64,000 nucleotides of DNA, from positions 23,374,001 to 23,438,000 of the forward strand of contig OX485803.1 of assembly GCA_950295325.1 (NCBI GenBank). The letters are read 5' to 3'. Numbering within the stretch: the first letter of the stretch is position 1; every line of letters starts with the position of its first letter. Shown piece by piece: positions 1,371 through 37,100 of the stretch. The position numbers and the translations under genes were made by a program. The stretch is from Polytrichum commune. Its lineage: Eukaryota; Streptophyta; Polytrichopsida; Polytrichales; Polytrichaceae. The notes under the pieces were generated by a model. The model made no database searches and had not been told where the DNA came from. It saw nothing but the letters and a program-made list of their open reading frames with translations.

Positions 1371-2649
1371 TTGGAATGCCTTGACTCCTCATGTAAAGCG
1401 GACCTAAGTTAAGTTAAGTAGCAATGACATGGTTTCCACTCACTACCGAAAACATACCCTTTCATCCTACTTTCTAAGGGTACTATATTTTCGATGAACA
1501 TTCAACATCTGAGGTTACAAACTATTGATTAGAATTAATGGTTACCGGATACCAATTAAGTGTTTGCTCCCTGCAAAAGGTGAAGTAAGTTTACATCTAA
1601 TGTTATTGCCCTTGAGGACATGGTCAAGGATGTTCTACAAACAAACACTCTCTTCATTGCAGTTTTCAAAGTCCATAATTATTCTTTTAATACCCTCCCC
1701 ACACCTATTGGTGGGCACAACCAACGGATAGCTCCCACTGGTATGGGGGGCTTTTCTATTGTTTTTAGGCATGAATAAATGTGATGTATGCAAGTTTCAA
1801 TTGTTTGTTGGCTAAGTTTGGATGTAACTTATTCCAACTATGCTATCCACATATTCTTACAAGAGATGATGACAATTGAATGTTTTAAAGTAATAACAAA
1901 GAGCAAGGTGGAAATGGAACATTGTGGGGAACATGAAATCCACTCCCACCTTGTTCTTTATTGGCTCAGTCTGTAGGATAGAGACTATGCATCAACTTCT
2001 ATGTTTCAAAAGCAAATTTCCTAACCACTTTGCATTCACACTTGGACGTTACTTGTTCATGTTATTTTTGGTTCAGTTTATTTAATGTGGAGGTTAACTA
2101 TAGTTATATATATCTAGTTAACTATAGTTGCTCCCTAAAATGTACTGAAAAAATCTAGTTAACTATAGTTATTTTGGCAGTTGTTAATTATTTATTTGAA
2201 AATTTTCGGGTGATAAATAAGTAGCTTCAGTCCTTGACCCACATTTGAGAAGAATGTGCACAAAATCCAAGAAAGATTTGGTTATAAGTATAGTAAATAG
2301 CCGTGAACTAGCATGAGCAAAATGGACAACTATAATTGTAATCTTTCATAATAAAGGACAGAGCCTCACGGTTCCACCGTTTTCTTGTTATCGAGACTCT
2401 CTAGGGAACAAAATGTGAGGAAACGATGATCTACCACGTGCACCTATCATGATTATGCATCATTTATGTAGCGTAATACCGCAACACTATAATATTACTA
2501 TTACATAACACTAGTAACACTTACAATACTAGAACATTGAGAATTACAAAAATACAAACAACACAAACAAAAACGTGCAAACAAACGAACAAACAAAAAT
2601 AGGTACTACACCACACTAGAGGTGAACCAACTTAAGGTGAACTATTAAA
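1371..2649. other. Intergenic AT-rich DNA, no gene seen
   Basis: No coding exon, RNA gene or complete mobile element was recognised. The motif TAGTTAACTATAGTT occurs several times around 2090-2175 as a short local palindromic repeat. The ORFs at 1525-1731 and 1788-1976 show no recognisable protein family. Confidence 0.5.
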
Positions 2650-3316
2650 AGAAGGCTAAAAACGAATACATGGGAGGGCCGTGAGAACTACATACCTACC
2701 GTGCCTTGAGGAAAGGAAAAAAGGAAAGGAAAGGAAAGGAAAGGAAAGGACGTTAGCATGCAGCCCAAGGCTCGGTGCTTCGCAATTGCCTCAATTGTTG
2801 GTAAGTCGGGACTCGCGTTTCCTCGGTCTTCCTTCGCACCTCGCTGCAGATCATGCTCGCCATGGCCTCCTCGTCCTCCTGCAAACCCTAGATCTGGACT
2901 GCTCTCGCACCGACCACAACTCCCGCCTTCTGTCTGCAGGCTCGCGGAGCTTCTGCGAATTCGCACGCCTTCAGCATTGCGCCCCGGGCGACCCAAGTCT
3001 CGCTCAACATGGTAATGTATCGGGGCAACTAGGTAGATGCCTTCGTCGGCGAATGACAATGCGTGCCGTGTTCGAATCCTCGTAGGCTCGCGGCGGGGGA
3101 AGGCTTGTGGAGGAGCGGAGGACGAGGGTGTCGAGTTCCTGCGGAGGTTGGGAGAGCGATCTTGTGGACGACTCGAATTTGGAGGCCAGGGGAACAGGAG
3201 GGTGAATGGTTTGAGCGAGTGTGTGTGTGTGGTGGGGGGGCGGATTCCGGAGGAGGTTAGTTGTCAATAGAGGAGGAAGGAGGAGGAGGAGAGAGGAAGA
3301 GGAGGAACAGCGTGCA
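2650..3316 (+). promoter_or_regulatory. Probable promoter and 5' leader of the IST1-like gene
   Basis: Base composition changes sharply from AT-rich to GC/CpG-rich at about 2750, and purine-rich GGA tracts run up to the first coding exon at 3317. A (GGAAA)n pentanucleotide run lies at 2709-2750. A strong donor-like GTAAGT occurs at 2803 in the leader, so a 5'-UTR intron is possible. The transcription start and TATA box cannot be placed with confidence. Confidence 0.5.
2709..2750. repeat. (GGAAA)n pentanucleotide repeat
   Basis: A GGAAA purine repeat just upstream of the CpG-rich 5' region of the IST1-like gene. Confidence 0.85.
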
Positions 3317-4400
3317 ATGAATTTCTCCTTTGGAAAGGGCTTTAAAGCCTCTCAATGGTGAGACTTACCTCTGTTTGTTCGTTTGGTGTTTTTGGTAAGG
3401 TTGCACAAAGGGGTTTGGGGAATCGATGACACTACTGGAGCGGGAAGGGAACGGGAAGGAAAGGGAAGGAATATAGCTGGACCACAAGTGTCGTTGCAAT
3501 GATCTGCGTGATTCCGATTTCCAGGCATAAAAAAGGCTTGAAAGCCTCGCAATGGTGAGACTTATGTATCTGTAGTTCGGTCTTCTTTTGTGGTCCTCTT
3601 GTTTCACGGTGGAGTAGCAAGCTGTTCACTGGCACTGTTAGTTGTCAGGGGGGGGGGGGAGGAATGAGGAACAGCGTGCAATGAATTCATCCTTTGGAAA
3701 GGGCCTCCAAGCCTCACAATGATGAGACATACCTCCGTTCGGTGTCTTTGTTTTTGTTGAAAAGGATTCTGAGGAATCGATACACTACCGGCAAGGGTAA
3801 GGATTGCAGCTGGACATCAGGTGTCATTGCAATGATCCGCTCGTTTCCGCATTCCAGGCTCGAAGGCTTTAAATCCTCGTAATGGTGAGAGTTATGTATC
3901 TGTTGTTCAGTCTTCTGTTTTGGTCCTCTTGTCTTACGGTGGGATAGCAATCTGTTCACTGGCGCGGCTAGTTATTAATAAGGAGGAAGGAGGAACAGCG
4001 TGCAATGAATTTCTCCTTTGGAAAGGGCCTCGAAGCCTCACAATGTTGAGGCATACTTCCTTGAATGGGAGTTTGAGAAATTGATACGAAGGATTGTGTA
4101 GCCAATAACGTAGCTGGATCTCAGGTGTTGTTATTGCCATGATCTGCTTGTATCCACATTCCAGTCTTAAAAGGCCTTAAAGCCTGGCAATGGCGGGACT
4201 TGTATATCTGCTTGGAGTTCTTTTAGATCCTCCTGTCTCACGATGGGAATGCAATCTGTGCACTGGCACGGCGAGAGCATTGTGTAGCGTAAATCGGCCA
4301 GGCGTGTCGTTGGACCTCGGGTGTTGGTTCAAGGATCTGCTTTTCCTGCGTGGAAGTTACGTTGAGCTGCATTTCAGGCTTTAGATGGATTGCAAGCAGA
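3245..4400 (+). repeat. Tandem array of first-exon copies (3 full A+B units, 1 degenerate)
   Basis: Three successive units of about 325-365 bp each hold two related half-units. Half A begins GGAACAGCGTGCAATGAATT, with ATG at 3317, 3681 and 4005. Half B begins near TTGCAATGATC, with ATG at 3499, 3832 and 4139. Both halves end with a core like AAAGCCTCNCAATG followed by the splice-donor position. Shared spacer sequence, for example CTGTTCACTGGC and GGTCCTCTTGT, follows each B half. A fourth, strongly decayed B-like copy lies at about 4310-4400. Only A1 (3317-3357) and B1 (3499-3554) have both an open frame and a GT donor. A2 has an AT donor, A3 a TT donor, B2 an in-frame stop, and B3 a frame lesion plus a GC donor. 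Confidence 0.88.
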
Positions 4401-7400
4401 TATCTGGAGTATGTTGTCGAGCTCTTGATAGATATCACGAAATAAAAAGAAAGGCATTTACTCTGAGACCTAGTCCTGCATTCCTTCTGTGCATGTTGTC
4501 AAGGAGGTGATCATGTTGAAGGAGCCTAGTTTATAGATTGAGTAAGTTGCAATTTTAGTTTAGAACTGTGAGTTTGACATGTTCTGAATATTCCCGTTGA
4601 GAGGCCTCTTCGATTGCACGACTGGCTTAGAGCAATACGGTGCCGAAGAGTTACTGTGTTTGTCAGGGTTTTGTCAGGGTTTTTGATCGAGCATAGAGAA
4701 CATAGCGATATCCATGAATTTTACCATGAGTGATGTAGTTGCATGGTGCTATTCGTGGCAGGTCTATAATTGTCTTGCATGAACTTCAGATACATCAAAA
4801 TTTGTGCAAGGGATTTTTAATGTTGACTGTCCTTCAATTTGGTGTCTCATCTGAGGAGTTTTGTTTTGTGTGCTACTTTTCCAGTGTTTGTTGAGCTGCA
4901 AGTACAGGATAACAGAGTAATAAGATATCTTGGTCAGAGGTGAACGGTGACTGAGTTCTGGCAACATCCTGAACGTCACTTTTTCTTTCCAGAGTTGAGC
5001 ATCTTGTTTTGCAACTTGCAAGTATGTTGGTGAATTCTCAAGCATCGTCCAGGAGCTGGCATAATTGGAGTCTCATCAGCAAGCCTGCATCATTGAATTG
5101 GAATGTGCCAGTCTGGTTTGACAGTCTATTGTGGGAAATATCATTTCTTACAGAAACTCCACTCAACAGTGGACGAAAGGATCTTCTTTCCTTTTTAGAA
5201 GTCTATGTCTGTTCAGCACGTGCAGCTGCATTGTTTGCCCATGAACTGATATTTGAAAACAATTTACTGCTTAATTTGTTTGCAGTAAAACTGATCTGCG
5301 ACTCGCCATTGCACGAATTAAGCTACTTCGAAACAAGCGAGATTTGAATGTGAAAGCTCTGAAGAAGGATATTGCCCAGTTGCTGATGGGTGGGAATGAG
5401 AGCAGTGCCCAACTTCGGGTACTTACTCCACTCTTTTACTTATTATATATGCAGTGAAAGAGAGTTTTCTAAGTTTATTTATTTAAACTGATCAATTGAA
5501 CAATTGTAATTAGTTGTATCAATTTTATCATGGTTTTAATTGCAGCAAGCAGCTTGGGTTGGGAATTAATTGATGTGAATATTCTTTTAAAGCTGATGTG
5601 AGGAGCTTATGAAGGTGTCCTACTGCTCTGGATATCCTTTGGTTAAATATATTGTAATCACCTGAGCACCTATTTATGCTCTACACGACATTTGAGATCG
5701 AGTGATTTGTAAGGTTAACCATTAACTCCTGTATTTTTAGTATTTAATTGGAGAGGTACTTCCTTCACTGAAGATTGCTCCACCTAGCTTGTATCAGCTT
5801 TGGTCAGTAGTTTGTTTGACCTGTTTGGGAATTCATCTGGTAACCCTGGGTTGGTTTGGCCTATGCAGGTGGAGCATGTCATCAGGGAACAGAGCTTGAT
5901 TGAAGCATATGATGCACTTGAAATATTCGCTGAACTTGTTGTTGTTCGCCTCCCAGTAATTGTGTCCCAGAAGTAATTGACCCATCCATTACCAAATTAC
6001 TGAAACTCTGTTTGCAAAGTCATCTAAGATAAATCTGCACTGTACTCTTGATTTGTTTCAGAGACTGTTTTGAAAGGTTGAATGTAACTTATCCTCCTTT
6101 GGCTCATCTGTTGTTGGTCTTTGGTGTGATTGGCAGGTTTTGCTCTGCAGACCTAAAAGAAGCTGTTGCAAGCTTGATTTTTGCTGCTCCAAGATGTGCT
6201 GACTTACCTGAACTTGCTCGGGTGCGCACTCAGTTTCAGGCAAAATATGGCAAAGAGTTTATTGCCGCAGCTGCAGAGCTGCGTGCAGACTGTGGAGTGA
6301 ATCGACGAGTAAGTCCAGATTCACTTAAATCCAACTTTGATGAATCTAATATGAGGAGGATTAAGAGTTACCTCAAGTATGTGTGTCCAGGGATTTTGAA
6401 AGTAGGCCTAAACAGTTTTGCAAATGTAGGCATCCATCGCCAATCTACACCGTTTATCTTGCAATGCAGATGTGAAGAAGTTGGCTATCGACCTGAATGT
6501 CAACTGTACAGAGTTTGCATGTATGAAGCTTGGAATATGGTTGATACTACAGGTAATAGAGAAGCTTTCAGCAAAACGACCTTCAGGGCAAACCAAGTTG
6601 CAGCTGATGAAGGATGTAGCAGTCGAATTCAATATTGAGTGGGATTCATCTGTTATTGAGAAAGAGCTCACCACAGCCCCTGCAGATTTGCTTGTAAGTG
6701 TGGAAACTTCGTCTACAGCCATACTATGTATGATAGACGCTCTAAGAGTGTTGAATTGTTTGTTCTAGATGTGAATACAATTTTGACAGTTCCTTCACCT
6801 ATTGCAATTGAGCTTTCTTAAATACTTGCAAGTATGGTATCCACCTATGGATCTTCTGTTGGTGCAGTCTATTGTGGTGTTTGCTGAAGGTGATACTATT
6901 TCCTTGTGGTGCTGCAGGAGGGGCCCAGTCGATTCACTTGTGCACCTGAAGCAGACCTGAAGGAGTTTCCTTCTGTTCCTACTCAAAGTATAAAAACTCC
7001 CAGCTCTATGAAACCACCTTCTGTGCTGGATAAGCCTATTCCATATGTTCACACTCAGGGGCCACCACCTAGTGAGAAGTATGATTCACCTTTGGGGCGT
7101 AGTGACCTCCCTCCCAACCAGCCAGACTCTGATAGTTTCCCCCCTCAAGTTTCTAAATTGGTAAATGAGAAACCTCAGGAACGTGGTAGGCGCCATTCCC
7201 TGGGGTCTGTGGGGGATCTGAATCCAGAGAGAAGGGATCTTGACAACGAAAGAAAGGCAAGGCGTGAGTCTGATGTATTTCCTGCTAAAGCATCACAAGG
7301 GTGGGATCAAAGAGCTAGCGGTATTACAGGAGAAGTGCGTGGTCGAGCACCATCTCGAGATGCACCAACTCGACCAGCACCATCTCTACATGCAAATAGA

Positions 7401-10346
7401 GCTTCAACCGATTTGGACAAGCCAGTGTCCGCCACAAATGTAGGAGTGCACTTTAACAATAATGCAAAAAACTTGCAGTCTAGTGAGGGTCATAAAGGTA
7501 GGAATACACCAGCACCTGTTCATAACCCAAAAGAGTATGAGTCTGATGAATATACCTCTCTTTCTGATGGTGACTTCAATATGGCCCCTTCTGTTTCTAA
7601 AGCTGTAAGCAAAGCTGGATTGGAAGACATTTCAGAAAGTGAGGACTCTGAGGAAGAGGATAGTCGCCCTGTAAAGAAAGAAATGGCTCAGCAGACTAGT
7701 TCTCGAAGGCGACAATCGAACAATAGAGCTATTAACCGGCAACAGAGTGATTTAATTATGTCATCTGAATCTGATGACAGTGGTCCATATGAGGGTTCTC
7801 AGGGTAGGGGTTCTAGGTTGCATCTACCTAAAGACAACTTAAAGAATGGTTCTCGACGCCCTCTCAATTCTGAGAAGGAAGAGGCTGCACAAGGTAGTTC
7901 CAGAATGGGTACCAATGGAAGAAATACTGTATCTTATGTCCAGAGTCCCTCCAAGAGTGACTACAGGCAGAGCCAAAAGGGGTTTGCAGAGCAGGCAGAA
8001 CCAGATGTTGAAGAGTACAGCCCCAGGAGGGTTAACCTTCAAAGAAACACTGAGCCCCAATTTGATGGCAAATATAAGCGTGACCACAGGCAGCGCCAAA
8101 AACAGGAGTTTGCAGAGCTGGAGCATGACGTAGATGTTGAGGAGTCTACGTCCAGAAGGGGTAGCAATGGAAGAAAAATGGGTCTTCAAACTGAGACCCG
8201 TCACAAGGGTCTTAGGAGGCAAAGCCAAATGTATGATGATGATGATGAAGAATTTGTAGAGCAGGTGCATGAACCAGATGCCTTCCAGCAAAAGGTTTCA
8301 CGAAAGAAGGGTTCTGGACAGACAAAGTTAAGATCCTCAGCTGATGGCTTTAGTCGGAGCAACTTGCGTAGCCCTCCTGTCTCTGATGATGAAATACGTA
8401 GGGAGGGCTCTCAAAGGAAAGGTTTTACGTACGCTAGGACTGATAATAATGTATATAATAGGGTTCAACCTTCTCACTTTCATGATTCTGAAGAAGAGAT
8501 CATTGATGAGGTTTCTCGCAGAAAGAGTTATGGGAAGGTAAGGTCTAAAGATGATCTATATCGGACTAATGGTTCGCATGCATCACATGACAAAGAAACA
8601 TTCAAGGGAGAAGGGTCTCAAGGTCGATCTAGTGGCAGGAGGTCAAGGACTACAGCAGAGGAATATCACAAGACTTTCTCTGGTAAGTCCTATAATTCTG
8701 ATGATTTGGATGAGGTTCATGAGGGGGCCTCTCAGCGGGGCAAGGCATCCCATGCTAAAGGAACGATTGGAAAAGTTAAGCCTGTGCATGATGGATATCA
8801 TGACCAAGATCAAACTTCATTCAATAGTAAGGCTCGTGGAAAACCCAAATCTTCACATCAGGAATCTGAGAGAGTTAGAGGCTTCAGCAATCATCGTCGT
8901 GAGAGTGAGTTGAGCAGTTCATCGGGTTATGAGAGTCCAGGATATTCCAAAGGTAGCAAAGGTGCAGCAAAGGTCACGAATCTGCAACCAGAGGAGCATG
9001 GAAGGTATGAGAATGTGTCCCATGGAAGTGAGGATGATGCGATCCTTCCTCCCTATGGTAGTACAAAGGCAGGAGGATCATATGGTTCTAAATATGACCA
9101 CAGTGAGATGTCCTCTGTGCATGAGGAGGGTAATATTCCACAAGGAATGCCCAAGCTCCGCTCTCAAGTAGATGACTTTCAAAATATCAACCCTGGCAGG
9201 GCACGGGGTTACGAAGATTACCCCCCGACTTCTGGAGATGGAGGTTCTCAGAGGGGTGCTGGCAGAGTAAAAACATCCTATCTTGATGGTGGGAGGGACA
9301 GGAGTTTATTCAATGAACCAGAGGAAGATACCGCAGAGCAACTGCGGGAGGGAAGCAGGAATTTGAGGCTCAACTCAAGTCATACCCGAGGCCAACGATA
9401 TGGGAGGGGGAACCCTGACCCTGATGGACCCAAGTTTGATGATGAGCTGGAAGGTTTTGAAGACATTTTCATCTCAAAACCAAAGACGAAGAAGTATCAG
9501 AGCAGTGAAAACAATGGGTTGTATGGTAGTGAGAGCACCTCTGGGAAGCGCATGAGCTTGCCAGGTGGTCTGTCTTACGAGAAAACAAAGCTCCAGCAGC
9601 CAAACAAGGTGAGAGGAGATGTTGATGTGTATGAAGATTTTCCTTCCATTGTGGACCGGCGGAATGTGCGGCGCTATACTGTTGGAGGAGAAGAACTCCG
9701 TGCAGACGTAAACAGAGAGAGCGGCCATGAACTCAGCAAAACCAGGGCTGCGGTATCATTAAGAGCTTATGAAGAGGACTCTCAAGCAGGGGAAAACTTC
9801 GAGGATTCATTGCAAGCGAAGAAGCTCGAAAGTAAGAACTTCCTTAAACCCCGCCCAAGGGCTCGAGATCCTCCTTATGTGGCCAGTGAGAGGCGTGATG
9901 ATTCTGTTGAGAGGGACCGACAAGGAAAATCCAGCAACGCCTCACGATACAGCTACAACAATGATGATGAGGACGTTCTTCCTCGGACACCAAATCTCGG
10001 TAAGTTGAGGGTTGGGAGACAACCCAGTTCTGTGGATGCATCAGGTTATGAGGATGCATCACCTGGTGGTGGCCGGCCTATGCGGGCCTCTCGAGGTGAA
10101 AAGTCTCAGAAGTCGGTGGATTCGCCTCGTAGATCTGAACTCGTGCCACCACCATCAAACCGTGTAAGGTCTAACCTAGCACACACCAAAGCTCCTTCAG
10201 ACTCATGGGCTCAGCAGAAGGTAACTTTGCCGGATCCTCGCAGGACCGTGTCAGCTGCCAAGGAAGACATACCTGACAAACCCAAGATTGTGAAAGTGCC
10301 TGATCTGGCCAATTTTTATGCCACGGTGCAGAAAGGAAGAGGCTAG
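3317..10346 (+). CDS. IST1-like protein (regulator of Vps4/ESCRT-III), 1339 aa, 6 coding exons
   Basis: Exons: 3317-3357, 5286-5418, 5869-5972, 6137-6308, 6553-6693 and 6918-10346. All phases close and the stop is TAG at 10344. Residues about 12-176 form the IST1 domain. Recognisable pieces are CKTDLRLAIARIKLLRNKR, VEHVIREQ, ADLKEAVASLIFAAPRC, AKYGKEF and VIEKLSAKRPSGQTKL, each matching the plant IST1 family in order and spacing. IST1 proteins bind ESCRT-III and regulate the Vps4 ATPase at multivesicular bodies; that role is inferred from family. Residues 198-1339, nearly all in the last exon, are predicted to be disordered and rich in Ser, Arg, Gly and Asp/Glu. They carry degenerate SRR-type and acidic repeats, for example around 7960-8320. 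The start chosen is A1, the copy with an intact GTGAGA donor that gives the family-like MNFSFGKGFKASQ. Intron 1 is 1928 bp and contains the exon array. Plants have several IST1-like paralogs, so no symbol is given. Confidence 0.9.
3499..3554 (+). CDS. Candidate alternative first coding exon (B1) of the IST1-like gene
   Basis: ATG at 3499 opens 18 codons and ends in phase 2 before an intact GTGAGA donor at 3555, the same phase as exon A1. Spliced to 5286 it would give an N-terminus MICVIPISRHKKGLKASQ followed by CKTDLRLA. The last residues, GLKASQ, match the GFKASQ of A1. This is an inference from frame and splice sites only; whether it is transcribed is not visible. Confidence 0.5.
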
Positions 10347-31377: not shown

Positions 31378-31830
31378 GGTTCAGTTGTTGCAGTTCTTGA
31401 TTACCGTGATTTCCAGGCCTAGAGCTGTTTGGTTCCCCCGCTTTCCTGGTCTAGTGTGCTCTAACTTAGTGAAAGGTGACTTGTGTCTAAGCCATTCCCT
31501 GTGTTCAAATTTCTTCACCTTAATTTCGGTAGTGCAGGATATTCTTTTACCTCTTGATTCTTTGTGGTTTCGTTAGTAGTGGCAATTACCCCTTTCCCTT
31601 GGCCAGTTTTTGCAGTTCTTGATTGTCGTACAAGTAGAGAGGTTCCCCCGCGTCCCCCCCCCCCGCTTTCCCGGTCTACTCTGCTCTAGTGGAAGGTGAT
31701 TTGTGTCGAGTCCACTCCACCGTGTTCCATTTTCTTCACCTGAGTTTCGGTAGTGCAGGAAGATTTCACCTCGTGATGATTCTTGTCAGTTCGTTTGTAG
31801 TGGCAATTCCTTTCCCTGGTCCTGCAATTC
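31378..31830 (+). repeat. Tandem duplication in the 5' region (about 225-bp unit, 2 copies)
   Basis: TTGCAGTTCTTGATT, GGTTCCCCCGC...CTTTCC.GGTCTA, TGCTCTA and TTTCGGTAGTGCAGGA occur in the same order at 31390-31545 and 31612-31765. Copies are diverged by substitutions and by a poly-C expansion in the second. Both contain the same donor-like GGTGA and acceptor-like GTAGTGCAG, so they may be duplicated leader exons or introns. Confidence 0.8.
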
Positions 31831-32054
31831 GTGTGGGGAGCGTGGAGCGTGCTTCTACTACAGCTGGAGCTCACTTGGAGTTTGCCTCGAAGTTGACGTC
31901 GGCTTCGTAGTCCGTAGGCTTTTGAAGCTTTATCAGCTGAGAGTGCGGGTGCTGCTCGTGCAAGGTTTCTTGTTAATGCTGGAGGCTGGGGTACCCGCAT
32001 TTGTCTCGGTGGACGTTGTCGACAGCGTAGTAATTTTCTCTCTTAGGGGATGCT

Positions 32055-33020
32055 ACACAGGATGCACATCAGTTTCGGCATTTGTGGCTGGAGGCTGAGA
32101 TGAAATCTGGAAAGCCAAGAGTCTTAGAACAAGGTGCAACCATTTGAAAATTTCTCGGGGATTGGCTTAGAACAGTGTGCAGGCCTTGTTACGGATACAA
32201 TGTCAAGCATTCGAACAGCTTGTTTCTTCCTCCTAAAATTCTTAATGTGTTTCTTGTAAATAATTCAACCTCATTAAGCAGAAGAGTTAGAGGAGTAGAG
32301 TGTTCGAAAGGCTCTCGGACTTCCTTCCCTTTGCAGTTCCATCTCATGTTGTCTCTCTCGTGAGAGTCTTTTTGTAAAAAATTCAAAGCCTCCAAGTAGA
32401 AGAGTTATAGGAGTGGAGTTCCGAATACTCTTGGACTTCTTCCCTTGAAACTCTATCTTTTGGATGCACAGCATTTTCGGTGTTTGTCGCTGGAGGCTGA
32501 GCTGAAATCTGGAAATCAAGAGTCTGAGAACAAGATACAACCATTTCAAAAATTTCTGGGGGATCGGCTTACAACAGTGTGCAGGCCTTGTTACAACACA
32601 ATTGTCACGCATGCGAACTACTTTCTCTCTTTTTAAAGCCTTAAGGTGTTTTTTTTTGCTACATAATTCAAATTCTTCAAGTAGAAGAGTTAGAGGAGTA
32701 GAGTGTCCCGAATATTCTTGGACCTCCTTCCATTGAAGTTCTATCTCTTGTTGTCTTTCTTTCGAGAAATCCTTGTTTTCTGTAAAATTCTCAATGCCTT
32801 CAAGTAGAAAAGTTACAGGAGTGGAGAGTTCCAAATACTCTGGAACTTTCTTCCTTGAAATTCCATCTCTTGTTGTCTCTCTTGTATAAGTCCTTGTTTT
32901 TTGTAAACATTTCAAGGCCATCAAGTAGAAGAGTATAGGAGTAGAGAGTTCCGAATACTCTCGGACTTTCTTCCCTTGAAGTTCTATCTCTTGTTGTCCC
33001 TCTTGTGAGAGTCCTTGTCG
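32055..33020 (+). repeat. Compound tandem repeat in the 5' region (alpha x2, beta x5)
   Basis: Alpha (about 175 bp, with GGCTGGAGGCTGAG and CAGTGTGCAGGCCTTGTTAC) occurs at 32055-32230 and 32463-32638. Beta (about 90-140 bp, with AGTAGAAGAGTTA.AGGAGT, GAATACTCT.GGAC and ATCTCTTGTTGTC) occurs near 32235, 32366, 32640, 32776 and 32896. The alpha-beta-beta block was itself duplicated, giving a period of about 400 bp. It lies 1.2 kb before the start codon of the coiled-coil gene, so it is promoter, leader or leader intron. Confidence 0.82.
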
Positions 33021-34186
33021 AATCGCACCTCATGTGCTTCATAACAAAGCGACTTGACAGGGGTGGAGCAATATGTTGTGAGGTTTTCTTTGGTACTTTT
33101 TGGTTCTGAAGCCTTGCGTACGCCATTTTGTAATCAAACAAGAAAAGTTGTGGGAGGAGTCTTTAAGCAACAACCTATGAAGCAGTTAGTAGGACAGAGA
33201 TCCCCTTACCGTGCTCTGCATTATCGTAATCAGGATCAATCGCCAAAATCCTTGAACGCAGTTTCTTTGGTGTCCTTAGTACGTAAGGTTCTCATTCAGC
33301 TGTCGAGGCACCGTCGTTTGGCAAGATTCTTACTCTTTATGGAAACAAGCGTGAAGAAATTCTCTCTCATGCTCCGTGGCAGGATATTTACTCTTTTCAC
33401 ACTTACCTTAGAGTGTCACCTGTAGAGTCTCATCAACTCTGTTATTAACGAGTCGCGTATGCTCTCTGCAGCTCTCGTGAACTTCAATGACGCGAGAAGC
33501 AACATCCTCTATTCAAACCATTGATTGAAAGATTCCAACCGGCGTATCGGGGCAGGCGAATCACAAGCGGCGTTTCATCCTTTAATAACAACAAGCTGCG
33601 CTACGAAGTATCGGTCTGCGCCACGTTTGTTGGACTTCGCAACGCTGTATTTGCTGGAGATAGCCAGGCCAGCGTTTCAATTCACTTGTGCAGTATGAAG
33701 TCGCAGCGACAGCTATTCTCTTCGGTGAGTGAGTCTTTTCACTCCTTTCTCACGACGAGCTTAGTCACTCGTTACTCTTTCTTCGAGCTGTCGGCTGCTT
33801 GCAATTTTTTGAGATTTTTCGAAATGCAGTTTGGTGTCCCGTCTTCCCGATATTCTCTTTCTTCTCTTTCCTCGCTAAATATGCGCAATGCAACGCGACT
33901 ATCATATTAGAAGGCCTCTGGGAAAGAATCAAATTTGAGTAGTCTTCCCGTCTTCTGAAGACACATCCAAGTCTGTAGTGTCAATGTAGAAAAGAAAGAT
34001 GTCATTTGCAGGGATAAGGTGCATCTTGTTTTCTTCTCCCTCACAATTTTGCACTGCCCTCATATTTATTTTCGTTTGTGCAGTTTTCCAAGGTACTCCA
34101 TGAAGCAATTGTTGCGATAAATGCAGCATAGCCACACTGGATCCCAAATGCTACGTGCACCAAAATTAGATTAAGCCGTCAATATC

Positions 34187-37100
34187 ATGTGCACTGGTGG
34201 TAAGGCTTCCTCTACTTTAATAATGGAAGCGTCGGAGCTGAAGGGGTCGCCTCCAAGTACTCCACGCTCACAAACTGATGACCATGCGGATATTGCTGGC
34301 TCTCTACTGGACCTCACACGACGCCCCAAGACCTTCATGGACAAGTTTCTATGTAAAGAAAAAGGCGACCAGCAGGTGCCAATCTTAGCAGAGTACTTTG
34401 GTGTGGCTCTCGCATTTGCGGCACTTGGGGCATTGATCCGCGGAGACAAATTAACTTCAGAGATGAAGTTTAGTCCGAGACTCCAGAAACTAGGACTACA
34501 AGTTATGCTGAAAAGCGCCATGGACCGTTTACAAGTGCTGGCACTCAATGCACAAGACTTGGAACAAAGAGTGAAAGAAAGCAAAGATGCAACTCGTAGG
34601 GATTTTGAAGCATGGGAGGCGGAGAAAAGAACTCTCGTGCAGAAGTTGTCTGTTGCAGAAGCACAGATTGCTAGAGTGGAGAAAAGCCGTGTTGAGGATG
34701 CAAAGGCGAATGAGAAAGTTGTTGGAATTTTCGCCTCGTATGAACAAGGATGGAAGAACGAGAGAAAGAAATTGAGACGGGAGATCGAGCTTCTGAGGAA
34801 TGAGATAGTTGGGCTACGCAATCGAAGCCAACAAAGAGGTGGCGATGGATGTGACGAGTGTAAAGCGAAAGAGAGGGAACTTGAAAAGCTAGAAGATAAA
34901 CTGTGCGAGAAAGAATTTCTGATGATAGCAACGATGGAAGAAGCGCGATCTGACCAACATGAGAGGAATCAGCTAGCTGGTAAACTAGCTATGGTGGAAC
35001 TCCTCGTCGCAGATTTGAAGGAGAAACTATCAAACGAGACGACAAAGAAGGATGAGCTTTCTGAGCTAATGACTGACGTGAAAGGGAAGCAGGAAGAAGC
35101 CGAGAGCAAGTTGGCAGTTGCCATGTTAGATCTGGAGAATGCGCGAAGGGAGATCGAATCTTTGACTGCAACCAAGAATGATCAGAATGCTGTGATAGAA
35201 GAGCTTTGGGATGACCTGACATTGCTTCAGAAGGACGTGGACGAGAAAGAAGAGGTAATTGCTGTATTGCTAAAGAGAGCAAGCATCGACCGAGAGGAGA
35301 AGGAGGATCTCAGTATGCATCTCGCACAAGCAAAGTCTAAGCGAAAGGCTGCTGAAGCTGAGAAAGATAGATGGAAGAGGCTTGCAGAAGAGCGGGCGCG
35401 TATTGTTCCTGTAGGAAAAGAATCACATAGAGCAAGGCGCAGCTTGGGCAGTAAAGCAGAACTAGATAAGATCTCTGAGATTCAGAGAAATCACAATGAG
35501 GAGGTTCTAGGCCTCCGCTCCATGTATGTTTCTAAATTAGAGTCGCTTGAAAAGCAGTTGAAAAGTTATGAGGAGAAAGTTGCTTTGTTGGAGGCAAAAA
35601 TTCTAGTCCATAGCAAGCGTATAGTAAGCGAGGGAGAGCGAAGCAAAGAGGCATTTAAATCGAGAGAGATTTTGAACGGTCATGAATTGGTCACGCTCCT
35701 CGAGTCTATGGAGCCCGATGTGGAAGCGGTGCAGTTCGACACTGTTTCTGAAATACAAGGTGAGACACTTGGCAGCTTCTATGTTATGCATATTTTTTTG
35801 GTGGCCCAAGAGACGATCAGTAGCACTTTGAAATAATGTTTTTGAGCTCTCTGTAGAGCTCATGCGTAGTAAGTGGCTCTAAACAAATAGGACCCTTTTG
35901 AACTCATCTTTTTGAAAAGCAGAAAAATACCAGACCCTGAACCCTGACCTGCCCTTTCATGAATTTGGTATATCAGAGGTTCCAACGACCACCCTGGCAT
36001 TGAAGGATTGGCTCAAGAATTGGCTTCAAGCTGTTAAATCCCAGCACGCCCAGCATCTAGAGCAGAGGCACTGGCGAGAGCTTGATGCATTTGAAAGACA
36101 GATGCGAGTTAAAGACGAGAGAATGGAATCTTTCCGCTGGCAGTTGGTGGGTATGGAGACTGATTTCAAGAAGATGAAGTCAGAGCTTGAGACTCTTAGA
36201 AGCAGACTTGCAATGGCCTTGGATGAGAAATGTCGAGTGGAGAGAGAGGTCGAAGGGAAGGATAAGGAGTTGCGCGCTTTGTTGAAAACTATGCTGCACA
36301 ATTCAGAAACCTTATCAGCTCCTAACTCCGATTTAGACGAAATAAGTCATCATGAAGCTCAACAGAGGGTTCTTACTCTCTTACAGAAAGAGCTCAAGGA
36401 TGCCAAGTAAACAATCTGGAACCAAGTCATATGCAAGTGCCTTTGAATAAGGTTGTGGATGCGCTTGTATGTAGTGTAAAAATGTGTGACACCTCAGCAT
36501 GGAACCTGTGCAATGCTGTCGAGCTTGTGCTGAATCATTCATCTCTTTGACAAGAAGTGTGTGAAAATGGCAGGATGAGATTGATGGAGATTGAACAAGA
36601 GCATCACAACAATCTGTTGAAGGTGGCTGAAGATGCAGAGGTGGAGCTTGGGCAGAAGGACTATCAACTGGCTGTAGTTGAAGCGAAATTATGCCAGTTG
36701 AAGCTACAGATTGAAAATGAGAAACGGATGAGCCAAAAGTTGGCTCCTGATATTCCTGCTCAACAGGTATTCGATCGTCAAACTTAGTGATGTGCGGTGA
36801 AGAACTAGTAAAATGCTGCCTATTGTCTTTTTTTGTTCTACTCTTCTTCCAATACCGAACTGTTTGCTGTACGACTTCAAGACATTTTTCTGCTCTACTG
36901 CATCGTGGGGTATTTTCTTGCTGTTAATATGGACACGTCCCTTCAGATAGGGTCAAGCATTAACCTACATGCAGTAAAGAACAAGTACCGTTCCCGTATT
37001 TGGCGTTTGTTTTGTGAAGCCTGTGCTTTAGTTGGTGACGGTAGACTGAAAATTAGCCATTAATGGGTCACAGGTATGGATGAATTTGTTTCTAATCCTG

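Follow-up and report, generated by a model that had tools for sequence, protein, structure and literature searches.

The window, that is, the whole 64-kb stretch of DNA that was analysed, contains an IST1-like plant gene for membrane remodelling whose 5′ end carries a tandem array of related first-exon copies (Table 1). The spliced protein matched the Pfam family Ist1 (PF03398) over residues 15–179 (E = 1.6e-56; 191.2 bits against a curated cut-off of 33.6) as well as the human IST1 structure chain (E = 1.4e-29), and these matches, together with the gene model, fit the claim of an earlier note on this DNA that a shared IST1 domain starts in exon 2. When the first copy of the array, A1, was joined to exons 2–6, the reading frame stayed intact and ended with a single stop, that of the last exon. 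Within this long last exon, a diverged coding duplication was also observed at 7953–8176 (offset of 123 nt, 73%). Arabidopsis is described as having 12 IST1-like genes (PMC12051064), and ISTL1 has been reported as not found in the bryophytes examined (PMC9209779).

Table 1. Features of the IST1 gene and of the array at its 5′ end (positions in the window).
Feature	Position	Strand	ATG to donor (nt)	Bases after donor position	Description
Unit 1 (A1 + B1)	3258–3638	+			Repeat search, self-BLAST, alignment
Unit 2 (A2 + B2)	3639–3968	+			Repeat search, self-BLAST, alignment
Unit 3 (A3 + B3)	3969–4275	+			Repeat search, self-BLAST, alignment
Fourth-unit relic	~4272–4342	+			B-like; AGG where ATG expected
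Leader-plus-start block	3302–3323	+			Identical in A1, A2 and A3
A1	3317–3357	+	41	GT	ATG, open frame, GT donor; reads MNFSFGKGFKASQ, then split C; proposed working first coding exon
B1	3499–3554	+	56	GT	ATG, open frame, GT donor; reads MICVIPISRHKKGLKASQ, then split C; possible alternative first exon
B1 cassette	3525–3554	+			30 nt after TTCCAG, in frame, adds ten residues; read by eye
A2	3681–3721	+	41	AT	ATG, open frame; donor not GT
B2	3832–3884	+	53	GT	ATG, GT donor; in-frame TAA just 5′ of donor
A3	4005–4045	+	41	TT	ATG, open frame; donor not GT
B3	4139–4192	+	54	GC	ATG, in-frame TAA; out of phase
Exon 2	5286–5418	+			Start of shared IST1 domain
Exon 3	5869–5972	+			Gene model
Exon 4	6137–6308	+			Gene model
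Exon 5	6553–6693	+			Gene model; acceptor possibly 3 nt later
Exon 6	6918–10346	+			Long last coding exon, ends in stop codon

Organization of the Tandem Array

Self-BLAST and repeat searches recovered the ladder that had been described at the 5′ end of this gene, with three A+B units followed by a decayed fourth one. The self-BLAST of the array gave an E value of 2.8e-103 at an offset of 366, and the repeat search placed the A copies at 3302, 3666 and 3990 and the B copies at 3489, 3822 and 4129, together with six copies of a 33-nt block at the exon end. Pairwise identity was 78% between units 1 and 2, 73% between units 1 and 3, and 76% between units 2 and 3. For the fourth-unit relic, the score of B3 against 4270–4440 was reached by 3 of 2000 shuffles. 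A further A half was found neither downstream (4262–5280; score reached by 388 of 500 shuffles) nor upstream of the array (2400–3250; 492 of 500 shuffles).

The A and B halves are themselves related, the local score of A1 against B1 being 33 compared with a null maximum of 22 (0 of 2000 shuffles). Identity amounted to 79–81% among the A copies, 82% between B1 and B2, 68–69% between B3 and either B1 or B2, and 48–62% between A and B copies; in the alignment, the B copies have about 12–15 nt more than A, inserted after the start codon and before the exon core. Because A-to-B identity lies below that within A and within B, the divergence of A from B appears to predate the multiplication of the A+B pair.

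The assembly searched comprises 408 Mb in 64 contigs (C1–C7 of 42–78 Mb, C8 of 0.15 Mb). A 1151-nt stretch of the array found no match in it but itself, and a 731-nt stretch across the 5′ end of the array (2690–3420) matched only itself and the array units; the search skips common words, so that rarity is not proved by these results. A dispersed repeat as the source of the array is unsupported, since the array stretches match only themselves or array units. Within the window, no Rfam family matched at gathering score and no tRNA was found, nor was a transposon identified at the array.

State of the Six Exon Copies

All six donor positions lie exactly where the earlier note had put them, and each of the six half-units has an ATG (ends and starts of the copies in Table 1). 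The additional claim that each half-unit holds a coding stretch and a donor in the same phase held for A1 and B1, whereas A2, B2, A3 and B3 have defects in donor, stop or phase. B3, because of its length of 54 nt, is out of phase with the other five copies. Since only A1 and B1 combine an ATG, an open in-phase frame and a GT donor, two of the six copies could code and splice. Their donors are identical through GTGAGACTTA, and the first ten bases of the intron are equal in both. The donors and stops of the other four copies ruled out six usable exons. In a variable-first-exon cluster of the UGT1A or sDscam type most cassettes would have an open frame and a donor; here two of six do.

Several comparisons concern A1 as the first exon of the gene. 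It encodes FGKGFKASQ, which aligns with the N-terminal LGSGFKAER of human IST1. Matches to the IST1-domain exons were found in at least four places of the assembly, on C1 (the array gene), C2, C6 and C7, and each of the three paralogs has a first exon that matches A1 (MFDVMLGKGFKASK on C6, MAMKSFLGPGFKASQ on C7 and MWDVMLGKGFKAS on C2). Where A1 has GFK, A2 reads GLQ, A3 GLE and B1 GLK. In a tree of the six copies (six short sequences, unrooted), the terminal branch of A1 had zero length and the other terminal branches 0.10–0.21. Counting against this assignment, the first exon of the C7 paralog was slightly closer to A2 (80%) than to A1 (78%) over 50 nt in BLAST.

We also simulated how often a copy would retain its ATG, open frame and GT under neutrality at 10%, 13% and 25% substitution per copy. 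At 13%, the ATG survived in 66% of cases, the open frame in 84% and the GT in 76%; copies with all three features made up 42%, compared with 52% at 10% substitution and 17% at 25%. The five copies besides A1 retain an open frame in three cases, the GT in two and all three features in one, a loss that fits neutral decay, with no need for selection on the extra copies as spliced exons. Standing against decay are the ATG present in all five extra copies, above the neutral rate of 66%, and the intactness of B1.

Conservation of the A Leader

The leader-plus-start block shared by the three A copies consists of 15 nt of leader, the ATG, one more codon and one base. Over the 295 ungapped columns of the three-unit alignment (65% invariant), 309 of 50,000 shuffles produced a run as long as the 22 invariant columns at the A leader, and 58 of 50,000 reached the best window of 50 columns. 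Conservation at the A leader and ATG exceeds that elsewhere in the array and is lower at the exon end and donor. When the pair of units 1 and 2 was taken alone no excess was observed (run reached in 26% of shuffles), and there was no comparable excess in eight other arrays or pairs, five of which are pairs with less power than the three-copy test. Because the A leader block is over-conserved, unlike these eight comparison arrays or pairs, at least one part of the copies does not seem free to vary. The identity of the block would follow from either a conversion event linking A1 with A3 or a constraint acting on a leader element.

Tandem Duplications Across the Genome and at IST1 Paralogs

Clusters of local direct repeats (offset 80–700, at least 50 nt, E ≤ 1e-6) were counted by the same procedure in all samples. 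An arbitrary sample of 88 kb, made up of the eleven 8-kb stretches that existed out of twelve chosen at round coordinates, contained 11 clusters in 7 of the 11 stretches, and the window contained 6, the array included, while one Markov null of 88 kb and one of the same 64-kb window contained none. Because local diverged tandem duplications are common, such an array is not unusual for this genome; the special part is that the duplication took in a first exon. Gene loci had fewer nearby duplications than the arbitrary sample, which counts against the reading of the copies as decaying relics. Three clusters were found in 2 of 20 ubiquitin-conjugating-enzyme loci, a sample that includes overlapping and near-identical gene copies, and duplications were present in 2 of 12 control stretches of 2.5 kb upstream of genes, four of which begin at matches from profile position 12 or 17 and are maybe not gene starts.

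Shortly before the first coding exon, the paralogs on C2 and C7 each have a tandem duplication of two copies, with spacings of 187 and 188 nt. In both of them a duplication lies within 2.5 kb upstream of exon 2, and in the C6 paralog only further out. If the array gene is included, three of four IST1 genes compare with 2 of 12 controls (p = 0.063, in a window chosen for its array); with two of three paralogs against 2 of 12 controls, IST1 genes may or may not be especially prone to duplication at the 5′ end.

Other local duplications were observed in passing. Within the window, a repeat region at 31435–33018 (offsets of 118–647 nt, 77–83% identical) precedes an open frame of 553 residues at 34175–35836 by 1.2–2.7 kb. 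An array with units of about 150 nt (69–84% identical) at C2:784850–787349 is located upstream of a single-frame match to the Snf7 family. On C5, about 95 kb (1751760–1846160) hold fourteen light-harvesting-protein matches of equal top score in mixed orientation, two near-equal ones being on C7; this cluster is strongly expanded or homogenised. The best Protein Data Bank matches of a light-harvesting protein of this genome were a chain named LHCI-2 (9vfj, from Euglena) and, after it, chains of 8htu and 7xqp, both from the moss Physcomitrium patens; the genome may be that of a moss.

A Probable Single Working First Exon and Its Possible Relics

We consider it probable, at roughly three chances in four, that A1 is the one working first exon and that the other copies are decaying relics within intron 1. 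The piece repeated in tandem would run from the leader through the first coding exon into the beginning of intron 1. A single exon-1 region would first have given rise to A+B, and the A+B pair would then have been multiplied to three or four units, probably through unequal exchange or slippage, which would be the source of such duplications across the genome. A1, as the 5′-most copy, would have kept its role, with transcription starting upstream, MNFSFGKGFKASQ being read and position 3357 being spliced to 5286. The remaining copies would lie within the 1.9-kb first intron, be spliced out with it, and be losing donors and reading frames without constraint. What the sequence shows directly are the repeats, the state of each copy, the unbroken gene model from A1 and the conserved peptide of A1, whereas the order and origin of the duplications, the use of A1 and the non-use of the other copies are what we infer. 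Tandem first exons had been put forward in the earlier note as a source of alternative N-termini; judged from the sequence, at most two of them (A1 and B1) could serve in this way, and the other four could not. The array has the look of a common duplication in decay, not of a switchboard that offers different protein beginnings. If only A1 is used, the locus would clearly capture the decay of tandem first-exon duplicates in an intron, in a genome rich in local duplication, and it would caution gene finders against spurious alternative N-termini.

The intactness of B1 in frame, phase and donor, with the start of its intron equal to that of A1, would also agree with a choice between two exons, in which A1 and B1 are both used and B1 either supplies a start of its own as an alternative first exon (MICVIPISRHKKGLKASQ) or is an optional cassette that follows A1 and precedes exon 2. 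There is a precedent in Arabis alpina PEP1, where both duplicated first exons are reported to be in use (PMC3527215). We regard such a choice as unlikely. B1 lacks the conserved LG/FG and the F of LGxGFK, which are common to A1, human IST1 and the three paralogs; both of the other B copies are broken; and one intact copy among five unconstrained ones is not unusual in the neutral simulation. Besides, over the three units invariant columns make up 68% of the exon and 67–68% of the downstream sequence, and the B exon is not kept better than its surroundings, because the similarity between B1 and B2 is equal in both. If B1 were used, a plant IST1 gene would be able, by its choice of first exon, to alter an ESCRT-III family protein at its conserved N-terminus, and use of both A1 and B1 would yield an IST1 protein (ESCRT-III-related) with and without the LGxGFK N-terminus.

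The A leader block bears on a different proposal, in which the array is a DNA or RNA signal and not a set of exons, its repeated leader, start-site or intron elements raising or tuning transcription. Such a role would keep the block alike, as its 22 invariant columns at leader and ATG are, and a two-copy duplication lies directly 5′ of exon 1 in two of three paralogs. Recent conversion between A1 and A3 would yield the same block, however, and the paralog duplications share no sequence with the array beyond exon-1 matches in the C7 comparison; two of three paralogs against 2 of 12 control stretches is a weak contrast, and duplications are common in this genome anyway. We find a signal of this kind improbable. 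A composite, in which the gene draws on A1 as well as B1, the two serving as alternative first exons or B1 serving as an optional cassette, and the A leaders are repeated transcription-start or leader elements, so that the array would be a small, partly decayed first-exon switch, also seems unlikely to us. As for an artefact of assembly, to which tandem repeats are prone, the copies differ at 22–27% of positions, far above sequencing error, which makes this explanation scarcely credible. The reading of A1 as the one working exon among relics is the one that we retain.

Comparison with Known Tandem First Exons

Tandem first exons as such are already known, and used, in PEP1 and in hydra. In the Arabis alpina FLC orthologue PEP1, a tandem duplication covers exon 1 as well as portions of the promoter and of intron 1 (PMC3527215), giving two overlapping transcripts with separate starts and one exon 2 (PMC3527215; reviewed in PMC7927791). 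The IST1 array similarly has homologous first-coding-exon copies with their flanks in direct tandem, as in a PEP1-type duplicated first exon; both are plant genes in which the duplication took in the first coding exon together with sequence 5′ of it and a portion of intron 1, with a single exon 2. The two PEP1 copies, 6.3 kb apart, are both used as judged from cDNA and 5′-RACE, with identical proteins predicted (one accession). By contrast, the IST1 array packs three units and a relic into 1.1 kb, and most of its copies are without frame or donor.

Among the literature matches listed, whose coverage leaves out most subscription journals, none described tandem first exons in IST1 genes, and the strings 'tandem' and 'duplicat' are absent from the main text of a paper that surveys rice and Arabidopsis for alternative first exons (PMC2174465). 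The hydra gene of Drosophila melanogaster comprises nine initial exons that are homologous, and transcription can start at four or more of them (PMC9013439). As in the IST1 gene, an initial exon was duplicated repeatedly and stands before exons common to all copies, but seven of the hydra copies are reported to be flanked by a transposon, whereas at most two IST1 copies look usable and no transposon was identified at them. Human UGT1A, with homologous first exons (PMC9013439), and chelicerate sDscam, with tandem 5′ cassettes (PMC4835542), likewise join one of several homologous 5′ exons, arranged in tandem, to a 3′ part that stays constant. Their cassettes, as described there, encode functional domains or binding sites and have their own promoters, while the IST1 exon encodes about 13 residues and most of its copies are broken.
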